In this document: positions 33,589-37,187 of the stretch, piece after piece
How the letters are laid out: the number at the start of each line of letters is the position of its first letter
Numbering within the stretch: the stretch's first letter is position 1
Origin: Acidobacteriota bacterium
Lineage (GTDB): Bacteria; Acidobacteriota; UBA6911; RPQK01; JAJDTT01
NCBI GenBank assembly: GCA_022827025.1
Contig: JAJDTT010000301.1
Location: forward strand, 1-37,187
DNA length: 37,187 nucleotides
Direction: 5' to 3'
Position numbers and translations under genes: made by a program
Notes under the pieces: generated by a model
Seen by the model: the letters and a program-made list of their open reading frames with translations, nothing else
Told to the model about the DNA's origin: nothing
Database searches by the model: none

Positions 33589-33910
33589 TGACAGGTGGCC
33601 TGTGCGGCAACGGGCAATCCCGTCGAGTCGGGGCCGCAGTCTACTCGCCGATTTCCTCCACGTGCAAGCGGGCATGCTCTGATCACAGCACCTCGGTCCT
33701 GGCGCAGTGTGCGCCCGATTTCAGTACAGGTGAATAACAATCAACGACACTGCCTCACGAATTCCAACCGAAGATCTGATACCGCTCGTTTTAAGATCGG
33801 GTTTCCTCGACGTGCCTGCTTGGAGCCCACAACCGGGTTTGTTACCCTTCCCCCATGTCCAAGGGCTTCAACGGGATGGTGTCTAGACCTCTCCGCCGAA
33901 GGAACTTAAA
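33589..33910. other. Intergenic region without recognised gene
   Basis: About 320 bp between the divergent sulfatase and the cassette beginning at 33911. No credible ORF, RNA gene or strong promoter was recognised. Base composition shifts here from GC-rich to AT-richer, so this is the likely left border of an acquired segment. Confidence 0.6.
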
Positions 33911-34228
33911 TTGACTAGTACACGCCTATGGCAAGCGAAGCAATTGGGTCAAATCGGAGAGTACTATTTTCCCGAGGCTTTGTTGGAAGTCCTGGCCGAT
34001 TACGGGAGGTCGGCGGCGTATGGATTGGGACCGGCGGAAATTGTCAAGGAAGCGAGCTTGTACCACCGATTACTCGGTCCTGAGTATCGCGGTAAGGTTG
34101 TTCGGTTGGTCATGCATTACATGGAATTCCAGGGCCGAGTTGAGAATATTGGACAAGCACGAACGCCCGGTGGAAAGAGGCTCAACGGGTGGAAACTATC
34201 CGAGACAGAATACGAACGTCGCAATTGA
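33911..34228 (+). CDS. Hypothetical protein, possible winged-helix
   Basis: A 105-residue soluble protein that I do not recognise. It is helix-rich up to about residue 75, with GLGPAEIVKEASLYHRL resembling a recognition-helix segment. A glycine-containing turn follows (GQARTPGGKRLNGWKL), which could be a beta wing, so a winged-helix DNA-binding role is possible but unproven. The start is TTG 33911, supported by AAGGA about 7 nt upstream. It ends 6 bp before the next gene, so it should belong to the same transcript. Base composition is lower in GC than flanking genes. It might be the regulator of the cassette. Confidence 0.6.
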   Translation: MTSTRLWQAKQLGQIGEYYFPEALLEVLADYGRSAAYGLGPAEIVKEASLYHRLLGPEYRGKVVRLVMHYMEFQGRVENIGQARTPGGKRLNGWKLSETEYERRN

Positions 34229-34234
34229 CGATTA

Positions 34235-34888
34235 GTGACCCTCACTGTCAGCATGGAGTACTTCAAGGACTACGCAGTGGACATTTGGAATTGGATCAAG
34301 ATTATTGCCCAAGCCTTGATTATTCGAACCGCAGTGGAGATAGTGATTAGAATTCTGAGTCGCTTTCCTAGAACCTGGCCTGAGAGTTGGCCAACAAGGA
34401 GGACAATTCTAATCACTCTCGGTTTGTGTCTGTTTATGGTTTTACTTTCCTTCGTGTCGCTCAGTATTCGCATTTACTTTTTCGGTTCGCCAGATCCTAC
34501 TATTCCCTCGGTTCTAGAATTCACGATTGCCATAGCTTTGTTAGTTGTGGGTGTTTATCTTTATGACGTCGTGGTCCGTGGGATCAGGATGGTGAAGAAG
34601 TGGAAGTGGAGAAGGCGACAGGTTTCGGTAGCAGAAGATCTAAAAGATGCCAATGCGGCGAAGCCACTGGTAAGGCAATTAGGGGTTAGACTCGGTCCTC
34701 TAAATTCGACAATACGTGTGTTGGGATATGTATTATTTTCTGTCCTGATCGCAATGGAGAAAGAGCGGAAAGCATATGTCTTATCTCTGCTCGGCATGTT
34801 ACTAGAGTCCGACAGCTTGGACTCGAACGAGGAGGAACTTTTGCATTTGATAATAGATTTCTGCGCCGAGGGAAAACCGGATGAATGA
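34235..34888 (+). CDS. Hypothetical membrane protein with cytoplasmic helical tail
   Basis: A 217-residue protein with no family I can name. Hydrophobic segments lie at about residues 22-41, 58-82 (ILITLGLCLFMVLLSFVSLS) and 92-115 (LEFTIAIALLVVGVYLYDVV). They are followed by a very basic patch (KKWKWRRRQ) and a mostly helical C-terminal half of about 95 residues ending acidic (DSLDSNEEELLHLIIDFCAE). By the positive-inside rule the tail should be cytoplasmic. The start is GTG 34235, or ATG 34253 six codons later. It overlaps the next gene by 8 bp. One 60-nt line within it (34681-34740) has 24 G+C, far below the flanking genome. Confidence 0.75.
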   Translation: MTLTVSMEYFKDYAVDIWNWIKIIAQALIIRTAVEIVIRILSRFPRTWPESWPTRRTILITLGLCLFMVLLSFVSLSIRIYFFGSPDPTIPSVLEFTIAIALLVVGVYLYDVVVRGIRMVKKWKWRRRQVSVAEDLKDANAAKPLVRQLGVRLGPLNSTIRVLGYVLFSVLIAMEKERKAYVLSLLGMLLESDSLDSNEEELLHLIIDFCAEGKPDE

Positions 34889-35585
34889 GATAGATCGGGC
34901 ACACGAGATTAGGAAGTTTGAGATTGACCTCTACTGGAGGCGGACGACGTACTTCTGGACCCTCATTGCAGCAGCATTTGTGGCTTTTTTTGCCATTCAG
35001 TCCGCTAAGGATCTACCTGCGCCCACCCGATCCGTTTTGTCATTTGTTGTAGCGAACCTTGGCTTAGTGTTCTCCATAGGGTGGTTCTTTATTAATCGAG
35101 GTAGCAAATTCTGGCAGCAGAATTGGGAGATGCAAGTAGACAGGCTAGAAAAACATCGAGGTGAGAATCTGTACAGATTGGTTTTGTACAGACCCCACGA
35201 AGATTGCTGGCTGGTCGACCCTGCTCCTTTTTCTGTATCTAAAATTAATCAGATTACAAGTTTCTATGTGGTTGTTGTGTGGGCAGGACTCATAGGATTG
35301 TCGATGGGACAATGGTTCGGTCTATTGTGGCCTTCGGTGGAGCTCCCCTTTGTCCGCCATGGTGCTGTTATCGTGTTTTTCTTACTGATGCTCTTATCTA
35401 CCTGCTTTGTGTGTTTATTGTTCTATTGCAAGGCGAGGACGCATCTGAAGGACAAAGGGTCTGAATACAAGTATTGCGTGGCACTGCGCACTCCTACACG
35501 AGTGAAGTCACGAGGGGGAGGACAACGAACAACTTGGGTAGACAAGTTGGGTTGTAAGATTATCTGTAGAAAGAAAAAACAATGA
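34881..35585 (+). CDS. Multipass membrane protein, possibly RipA-like
   Basis: A 234-residue inner-membrane protein with four predicted helices: about 23-42, 50-72, 128-150 and 157-183. The N-terminus, EIRKFEIDLYWRRTTYFWTL, is reminiscent of a group of small bacterial membrane proteins annotated as RipA family; this is from memory and not checked. A cytoplasmic loop between helices 2 and 3 contains the aromatic, charged stretch FWQQNWEMQVDRLEKHRGEN. The C-terminus is strongly basic (KIICRKKKQ). It starts inside the preceding gene (8-bp overlap) and ends overlapping the following small ORF by 4 bp, so all three are probably translated together. Confidence 0.75.
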   Translation: MNEIDRAHEIRKFEIDLYWRRTTYFWTLIAAAFVAFFAIQSAKDLPAPTRSVLSFVVANLGLVFSIGWFFINRGSKFWQQNWEMQVDRLEKHRGENLYRLVLYRPHEDCWLVDPAPFSVSKINQITSFYVVVVWAGLIGLSMGQWFGLLWPSVELPFVRHGAVIVFFLLMLLSTCFVCLLFYCKARTHLKDKGSEYKYCVALRTPTRVKSRGGGQRTTWVDKLGCKIICRKKKQ

Positions 35586-35758
35586 CAGAAAAGAAAGGGC
35601 TGAAGAAGTACGTGATCTGTTGGGGGAAGAACGAGAGAGTCGTCAGGAAGGCTGATCGTCACGAGATAAAAGGCAAGCGACTCACCCTTTTCGTAGGTGA
35701 GCGTAAAGTAGCTCAGTTCCCAGAAGCCACGGCGTGGTGGATCAAATGTGATGACTAG
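35582..35758 (+). CDS. Small 58-residue basic protein, unknown function
   Basis: ATG 35582 overlaps the stop of the preceding membrane-protein gene in the ATGA manner, and the frame ends at TAG 35756-35758. The product begins MTEKKGLKKYVICWGKNERV and ends AQFPEATAWWIKCDD. It looks like a compact all-beta domain: alternating hydrophobic residues, a GKRLTLFVGERKVAQFP hairpin and a terminal Trp-Trp. No family can be named. The overlap and the tidy beta pattern argue for a real gene despite its size. Confidence 0.6.
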   Translation: MTEKKGLKKYVICWGKNERVVRKADRHEIKGKRLTLFVGERKVAQFPEATAWWIKCDD

Positions 35759-36070
35759 AGATCCCGCAATGGAGGCGTCTCGTAGGCGTCGGATGGGTCA
35801 AAGATACTTTAGGGTCTTTCATTGCCTTGCCTCGTGTTCCTCGAGTAAGTGGAATGGGAGAAGGCGGAGAGGAAGATCCTGCGCCGCGAACTAACTGTCT
35901 CCGGTCAGGGCGGACCATCTCGATCAAATGTGGCGGCAATTTTAGTCTGGCTAAAACGTCTGATTGTCACCCAGGAGACGCTCGGTTTGAGACCGGCACG
36001 CCCTACCTTCACTTCCCTGCGCCATGTAATAATATGAAGGGGTCAAGAATTCCTAATTGTCCCCATACTT
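35759..36070. other. Intergenic region with an imperfect palindrome
   Basis: About 310 bp with no convincing gene; open frames crossing it lack domain-like sequence. The only structure noticed is a 26-nt imperfect palindrome at 36039-36064, with GGGGTCAAG and TTGTCCCC arms. It could be a REP-like remnant. It marks the probable right border of the AT-richer cassette. Confidence 0.5.
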
Positions 36071-37187
36071 TTGTTGAGCCTGTCCTTCCTCCTCTTGATA
36101 AGTACAGATAGCCCCGTTTTTCTTGGACCCTCCGCCGAATCCGGCCCCGGCACGGCGATCCCTGTGGGCCACGAGTCCCGCCAGGACGACATGCCCTCCA
36201 TCGCGGCAGCGCCGGACGGCACCGTCTGGGTGGCCTGGCTCAGTTTCGACGGACGCAGGGACGATGTCGCCATCCGCCACTACAAGGACGGGACTTGGCA
36301 GAACCTGCATTGGGTCCCGGGAACCAGCGGCGACAGTTGGCTTCCCCAGATCGGGGTGGACGGCGCCAATCGGGTCTGGGCCGTCTGGTCGCAGCAGCTC
36401 GATTCCAACTGGGATGTCTTCGCCCGGCGCTTCGATCCTGCCGAGTCGATCTGGGGACCGCTGCTCAGACTGAGCTCCGATCCGCTCCCCGACATCAATC
36501 CCAGGATGTCATCGGACCGCCGGGGCCGGCTGGCCGTTGCCTGGCAGGGTTTTCACCGTCAACCGGACGCACGGACCCAGGCCAAGAGCCATATCTTCTT
36601 GCGCCTCCTCGATGGCGATCAATGGACGGAGACGATCCGGATCACCGGCGGCGCTCACAATGACTGGGCGCCCAGCCCGGCCATCGACAGGACAGGTGTG
36701 GTCTGGGTCGCCTACGACACCTACCGGGACGGCAGCTTCGACGTTTATCTGGCGCAGGTTTCGGGAAACAGGGTGGTTGAGCCGAACATGCCGGTGTCCA
36801 TGACCCCTGCCTTCGAGGCCCGGGCCACAACGGTAGTCGATGCCGAAGACCGGGTCTGGGTAGCCTGGGTGTTCGGACCCCGCCATTGGGGAAAGGACAA
36901 CGGAAGGGCCCTGGCCGATCCTGGAATCGGCTCGCCGCTGGGTGGATTTCGGGAGCCGCGGATTGCCTGCCTGACCCAGGGCAGTTGGCTTGAGCCCGTG
37001 TCCCCCTTGGAAGCTGTATTCCGGCCATACAACACGTATCAACCCCACGTGTATTCCGACGGATCGGGTTCGATCCGGGTGGTGGCCATGGAGCGGCGAA
37101 CCGGTGGGCCGACCAGGGACTCCGTCCTCTTTCGCAAGCGGGCTTATCCCGAATATTGGAGGGGACGTCCGGACGGCTATTGGAGCT
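36071..37187 (+). CDS. Secreted beta-propeller-like protein, 3' end outside window
   Basis: An open frame runs from a TGA at 36035 to the window edge without stop. TTG 36071 starts a plausible signal peptide (LLSLSFLLLISTDSPVF); TTG 36074 and later TTG codons are alternatives, and no ribosome site is evident, so the start is uncertain. The mature part repeats a beta-propeller-blade pattern at roughly 50-residue intervals: PSIAAAPDGTVWVAWLSFDG, IGVDGANRVWAVWSQ, MSSDRRGRLAVAWQG, PAIDRTGVVWVAYDTYRDG and VVDAEDRVWVAWVFG. Such repeats occur in BNR/sialidase-like and other secreted propellers. About 370 codons are visible. Function is unknown; carbohydrate or polymer binding is only a guess. Confidence 0.75.
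   Translation, partial: MLSLSFLLLISTDSPVFLGPSAESGPGTAIPVGHESRQDDMPSIAAAPDGTVWVAWLSFDGRRDDVAIRHYKDGTWQNLHWVPGTSGDSWLPQIGVDGANRVWAVWSQQLDSNWDVFARRFDPAESIWGPLLRLSSDPLPDINPRMSSDRRGRLAVAWQGFHRQPDARTQAKSHIFLRLLDGDQWTETIRITGGAHNDWAPSPAIDRTGVVWVAYDTYRDGSFDVYLAQVSGNRVVEPNMPVSMTPAFEARATTVVDAEDRVWVAWVFGPRHWGKDNGRALADPGIGSPLGGFREPRIACLTQGSWLEPVSPLEAVFRPYNTYQPHVYSDGSGSIRVVAMERRTGGPTRDSVLFRKRAYPEYWRGRPDGYWS

Follow-up and report, generated by a model that had tools for sequence, protein, structure and literature searches.

Organization and composition of the locus

The window analyzed here, a 37,187-nucleotide stretch of Acidobacteriota DNA, contains four genes packed head to tail on the plus strand. Re-calling the open reading frames (ORFs) confirmed the lengths of 105, 217, 234 and 58 residues and the spacings of +6, -8 and -4 bp given in the initial annotation.

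Gene 1: 33911-34228, plus strand, 105 residues, TTG start
Gene 2: 34235-34888, plus strand, 217 residues (211 if the ATG at 34253 is the start)
Gene 3: 34881-35585, plus strand, 234 residues, RipA-family / 8xMP protein with a PF24838 match
Gene 4: 35582-35758, plus strand, 58 residues

The frames are longer than base composition alone would produce: shuffling the bases of this segment 2000 times never produced an ORF of 217 residues or longer, whereas the real sequence contains two, and the longest antisense ORF within it is 114 residues. A good ribosome site for gene 3 (GAGGG) lies inside the end of gene 2. Inspection of the sequence revealed no obvious ribosome site for gene 2, and neither of its candidate starts, GTG at 34235 and ATG at 34253, is preceded by a good one. 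Since the start of gene 2 is uncertain, the spacing between genes 1 and 2 may be +24 rather than +6 bp.

The low GC content ascribed to these genes was borne out, with values of 0.45-0.52 per gene against 0.63 in 16 reference genes of the window; the count of 24 G+C in the 60 nt from 34681 was likewise correct. The contrast is also seen at third codon positions (0.50-0.61 in the cassette genes versus 0.74-0.85 in the reference genes, n = 16), and a sliding profile falls from ~0.62 to 0.45-0.48 exactly at the cassette. No RNA family matched anywhere in the window.

Insertion relative to a sibling species

Alignment of the window with G001, a sibling species in the same genus, places the four genes in a longer segment that the sibling lacks. 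The features of this segment and its junctions are as follows.

Whole insertion: 33901-36062, plus strand, 2162 bp, GC 0.48, absent from sibling species G001
Leader ORF across the left junction: 33876-33914, plus strand, the host start codon with 8 host codons, followed by 4 codons of insert DNA and a stop
Non-coding tail of the insert: 35759-36062, plus strand, from the sibling alignment
Palindrome GGGGTCAAGAATTCCTAATTGTCCCC (GGGG...CCCC): 36039-36064, plus strand, at the right junction of the insertion
Host gene separated from its own start codon and signal-peptide n-region: 36063-37187, plus strand, from sibling comparison and reading frames

In a blastn alignment, the window up to 33900 and from 36063 onward matches adjacent bases of the sibling (4106 and 4107) with ~83% identity on each side. 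Relative to the sibling species, 33901-36062 is a clean insertion with a single-base junction on either side, and the flanks are contiguous in G001. The flanking genes adjoin there as well, the sulfatase being 85% identical and the downstream secreted-protein gene, which keeps a long open frame in the sibling, 81% identical. This exact insertion and the foreign composition strongly support the accessory status proposed for the unit, and the block is a horizontally acquired accessory module. It is probably a newly acquired module of the defense type. The gene-free borders described earlier were reinterpreted in part: the downstream ~304 bp is insert DNA, whereas the upstream stretch is the host's own divergent promoter region, found in the sibling too.

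Target duplications, terminal or inverted repeats, and a recombinase or transposase were all looked for in 33901-36062 and none was found, nor was a second copy of the insertion found in the genome. A transposon or integron-type element was rejected on these grounds (no recombinase, terminal repeats, target duplication or repeat copies). The palindrome at the right junction is present in a single copy in this genome, is absent from 395 other genomes of the phylum, and could have been left by the mechanism of insertion. Single-strand folding of the two junctions was no better than that of shuffles. A comparison of the non-coding tail with plasmids recovered no relatives. A 20-nt near-repeat (90%) occurs in gene 2 (34598-34617) and again in the tail (35847-35866).

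The insertion point lies at about the ninth codon of the secreted-protein gene, parting the start codon and charged n-region from the rest. In the sibling, the frame runs across the junction as ...VFKHLRR|TILLLGLPLLLLA... and encodes a signal peptide. Loss of the start and the n-region has probably impaired the downstream host gene; several similar genes are present in the same genome.

The same arrangement bears on expression of the cassette. The host ATG at 33876 now yields MVSRPLRR-RNLN-stop, and the stop overlaps the start of gene 1 as TTGA. Because the TTG start of gene 1 comes after just 10 bp of insert DNA, the cassette is probably transcribed from the host promoter, and because the leader stop overlaps the gene 1 start, it is probably coupled translationally to the host start codon, as judged from these frames.

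Gene 3 belongs to the RipA family

None of the four genes had been assigned a function in the initial annotation, a statement that is wrong for gene 3 at the family level. Its product scores 118.7 bits on the Pfam profile PF24838 (8xMP), for which the cut-off is 30 (E = 2.1e-34), and the match covers profile positions 4-134 of 136. By sequence it is a clear member of this family, described as 'RipA family octameric membrane protein', the name that RefSeq/NCBI also gives to its E. coli relatives. A pattern search recovered 25 relatives in Pseudomonadota, Bacteroidota, Chlorobiota, Spirochaetota, Fibrobacterota and other groups. In a 16-sequence alignment the motifs RKFEIDLYW, GSKxWQxxWE and SVxKxN form invariant columns, gene 3 included. 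Identity between gene 3 and its close relatives is low, at only 30-44%. By path, gammaproteobacterial proteins lie nearer to gene 3 than the copy in its own genus does, a placement with weak support.

The predicted structure of gene 3 (pLDDT 74) consists of two helix pairs (residues 3-41 and 47-93, and 119-149 and 157-185), with which the hydropathy peaks agree. Two features set it apart from the PF24838 family: an additional basic tail at the C-terminus (about residues 188-234; disordered in the prediction), and its setting in an operon of otherwise orphan genes. No solved structure of a relative was found. A search with the model returned no significant structural neighbor; the best, the designed TMH4C4 nanopore (E = 0.8, probability 0.84), is not counted as evidence. 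Like its family, the gene 3 protein may form a homo-octamer.

Genes 1, 2 and 4 are orphans in the searched collections

Searches of Pfam, NCBIfam, PADLOC and PHROGs gave no above-threshold match for the remaining three proteins, and no credible relatives of them were found in 100 to 398 whole genomes. Gene 1 had no relative among 100 related genomes, in plasmids or in viral contigs, and gene 2 had no credible one in viral contigs, plasmids or phages. Judged by eye, gene 1 plausibly encodes a small winged-helix protein. Matches of gene 1 to AlphaRep-type sequences were rejected, as they comprise many tiny designed-protein repeats and reflect low-complexity helix similarity. Gene 4 probably encodes a small basic protein with β-structure.

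Gene 2 shows 3-4 hydrophobic helices in its N-terminal two thirds by hydropathy, followed by a helical C-terminal domain, and its model is all-helical (pLDDT 61). A fold search with this low-confidence model found no significant structural neighbor. The C-terminus gives a weak match to PG_1108 (2H5N; phmmer E = 0.0023 over 43 residues) and has no Pfam TerB match. 2H5N is classed as TerB-like, and a TerB-like C-terminus for gene 2 is a lead offered by this similarity. Other weak matches of gene 2, at around E = 1e-4 with 24-31% identity, were rejected as membrane-helix similarity.

Because genes 1, 2 and 4 lack credible relatives, the four-gene cassette was found nowhere else. The genes are not seen together in any other genome searched, an outcome that the initial annotation had named as counting against its proposal, and the idea of a conserved four-gene cassette is not supported; what we call the cassette is one observed case of this combination. 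On the available sequences, the family of gene 3 was already known and the combination appears to be new.

RipA-family genes sit among defense genes

PF24838 is patchily distributed, with matches above the cut-off in 19 of 396 genomes of the phylum. The longer RipA subfamily, to which gene 3 belongs, adjoins an OLD-like AAA_15 ATPase (locus L007). Members of this subfamily also lie beside a SIR2 protein of the PADLOC candidate system PDC-S65 (L011) and beside a type I restriction operon that includes PDC-S14 (L031). At two further loci the neighbors are a PHP/SMC-like ATPase (L004) and a PLD protein (L033). In Treponema, a gene for TPR-CHAT, a caspase-like protease, lies directly downstream of a RipA-family gene (L023, 5632-8916); genes of about 1100 residues at two more Treponema loci (L025:5610-8900 and L026:5611-8994) are likened to it by position and size only. 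E. coli offers three settings: beside kwaAB (Kiwa) with HsdM also near (602354), in an integrase/mutS island with a restriction system, and as the lone plus-strand cargo gene of a P2-like prophage.

Searching the neighbors all against all, we found that only one pair of RipA-family gene and partner recurs. One and the same convergent pair, consisting of a RipA-family gene and a gene of 358 residues, is present on a Klebsiella plasmid (L032:4914-6976) and in an E. coli P2-like prophage (L086:12001-14059). The RipA-family genes of the two copies share 89% DNA identity, and the pair moves as a unit. In another genome of the genus (G003), at a different locus (L002:518-1497), a RipA-family gene overlaps an OLD-like ATPase gene that is truncated after about 90 residues.

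The surroundings of the family were also compared with those of random loci. ORFs were scanned with PADLOC (E <= 1e-20) in two sets: 131 lying no more than 5 kb from one of 18 relatives, and 136 taken from 18 random loci of 10 kb. The neighbors of the relatives matched 89 models, which overlap one another and so do not amount to 89 independent genes, whereas the random loci, drawn from other taxa, matched 6, all generic or repeat-type. Models matched near the relatives include MTase_II, REase_II, PtuA/PtuB (Septu), PD-Lambda-5, Old, DrmMII, PDC-S18 and PDC-S68; no convincing defense family appeared at the 18 control loci. Because the control lacks taxonomic matching and the models overlap, the contrast is a strong hint, not a statistic, that RipA-family genes sit among defense genes.

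A second RipA-family gene between two TIR genes

The same genome carries a second copy of the family, a 173-residue 8xMP gene located between two ThsB_TIR genes and overlapping both (G000:C317, L090:3045-4388). The TIR genes match PF08937 (E = 3e-13 and 1e-14) as well as PADLOC ThsB. No canonical ThsA (SIR2-SLOG or TM-macro) was found at this locus, where the middle gene matches PF24838 and has no PADLOC ThsA match. The sibling G001 lacks 853 bp here, a stretch that takes in the end of the 8xMP gene and the second TIR gene. Two further loci join these families: ThsB_TIR adjoins a DUF7701-8xMP fusion at L039:1447-2670, and at L038:1006-2718 it adjoins a fusion with a C-terminal 8xMP and an unnamed N-terminus, a SEFIR gene also being present.

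The Thoeris system of E. coli CFT073 comprises one ThsA TM-macro protein and two ThsB TIR proteins (PMC11204291). ThsB TIR proteins are the sensors that make a nucleotide signal, and the ThsA TM-macro protein is proposed to oligomerize on binding it and perturb the membrane (PMC11204291). The two loci are alike in having one membrane protein and two ThsB proteins, with 8xMP in the ThsA position at L090. The ThsB_TIR - 8xMP - ThsB_TIR operon thus appears, from its domains, to be Thoeris-like with a RipA-family protein replacing ThsA. In principle, a small oligomerizing membrane protein as effector in Thoeris resembles gene 3. The cassette itself is different, as Pfam and PADLOC detect neither TIR nor macro, SIR2 or SLOG domains in its four proteins.

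Proposed function of the cassette and alternatives

We give about an even chance to the cassette being an anti-phage system of the abortive-infection type, with an oligomer of the RipA-family protein as membrane effector and the orphan genes sensing or regulating. By analogy we infer the effector role, the roles of genes 1, 2 and 4, and any phage trigger. Gene 1, DNA-binding-like, and gene 2, a membrane protein with a cytoplasmic helical domain, would sense or transmit a signal of infection or stress, and gene 4 would perhaps be part of sensing or control. The gene 3 protein would assemble as a homo-oligomer in the inner membrane and, once triggered, perturb it, as other membrane effectors do. 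Gene 3 is proposed as the effector by analogy with the L090 operon, in which 8xMP occupies the position of ThsA. Kiwa, with its membrane protein KwaA and KwaB, likewise places a small multi-helix inner-membrane protein in a compact defense operon, although neither KwaA nor KwaB is matched by any cassette protein in PADLOC.

The earlier suggestion that a membrane protein of this unit is a defense effector gains ground for the 234-residue protein, given its second copy between ThsB genes and the defense-rich neighborhoods elsewhere, and loses it for a conserved cassette. PADLOC 2.0 gave zero matches for all four proteins, and no recognizable sensor or signaling enzyme (TIR, CD-NTase or STAND) was found among them. 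Since genes 1, 2 and 4 are orphans, their co-conservation with gene 3 could not be demonstrated. In the literature searched, no report was found of RipA-family proteins in phage defense.

Among proteins named RipA, only that of Francisella has been studied, and it points in another direction. Francisella RipA is encoded by a chromosomal gene conserved in the genus and functions in intracellular growth and LpxA stability, not in phage defense (PMC4322802). It is a homo-oligomeric protein of the cytoplasmic membrane with two essential cytoplasmic domains that co-precipitates with LpxA, and its loss is suppressed by mutations in lpxA or glmU (PMC4322802). RefSeq files the family of gene 3 relatives under the RipA name, and the likeness considered here is that of the name and the published description. 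By this route the cassette could be an envelope-homeostasis or stress-adaptation module whose RipA-family protein stabilizes or organizes inner-membrane enzymes, as Francisella RipA is proposed to do with LpxA. We consider this unlikely, though the foremost of the alternatives, because relatives of gene 3 are found on prophages, plasmids and defense islands, beside TIR, OLD, SIR2, restriction-modification and Kiwa genes, unlike an envelope gene. The best reading of this genomic company is that it favors defense over envelope adaptation.

Somewhat less likely again is that gene 3 acts alone, genes 1, 2 and 4 being remnants or passengers brought in alongside it. A consistent partner gene is missing from many relatives, and the cargo gene of the E. 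coli P2-like prophage stands by itself; the 8 and 4 bp overlaps, the gene 3 ribosome site within gene 2 and the four intact frames nevertheless suggest that the genes have been selected together. Two membrane proteins lie between the small, regulator-like gene 1 and the tiny, basic gene 4 in an accessory, mobile-looking location, as might be expected of a toxin-antitoxin-like addiction unit in which gene 1 or gene 4 restrains a membrane-active protein. That reading is improbable, as no toxin or antitoxin family is matched in Pfam, PADLOC or NCBIfam and four genes would be unusual for such a unit. The pair of multi-helix membrane proteins (genes 2 and 3) might also suggest an ordinary physiological operon for a small transporter or channel, but this can be set aside as very improbable, since a search of both for known transporter families, whose presence would have counted against the original proposal, gave no match at any reportable level and gene 3 belongs to a non-transporter family.

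Returning to the anti-phage reading, we tentatively extend it to the whole family. RipA-family (8xMP) proteins may be general, previously unrecognized immune membrane effectors operating with many sensors (TIR pairs, OLD-type ATPases, SIR2 and TPR-CHAT). The cassette would then represent a new combination of sensors, with the oligomer under the control of an orphan winged-helix protein and a second membrane protein, and Francisella RipA would be a domesticated member. The family is named and predicted to oligomerize, but there is no agreement on its function. Should its members prove to be immune effectors, a single family would link Thoeris-like TIR signaling, restriction islands and prophage cargo, and the puzzling Francisella RipA would gain a testable ancestry. 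The cassette is also a clean example of accessory genes taken up as an operon behind the start codon of a host gene, the empty site being kept in a sibling species.
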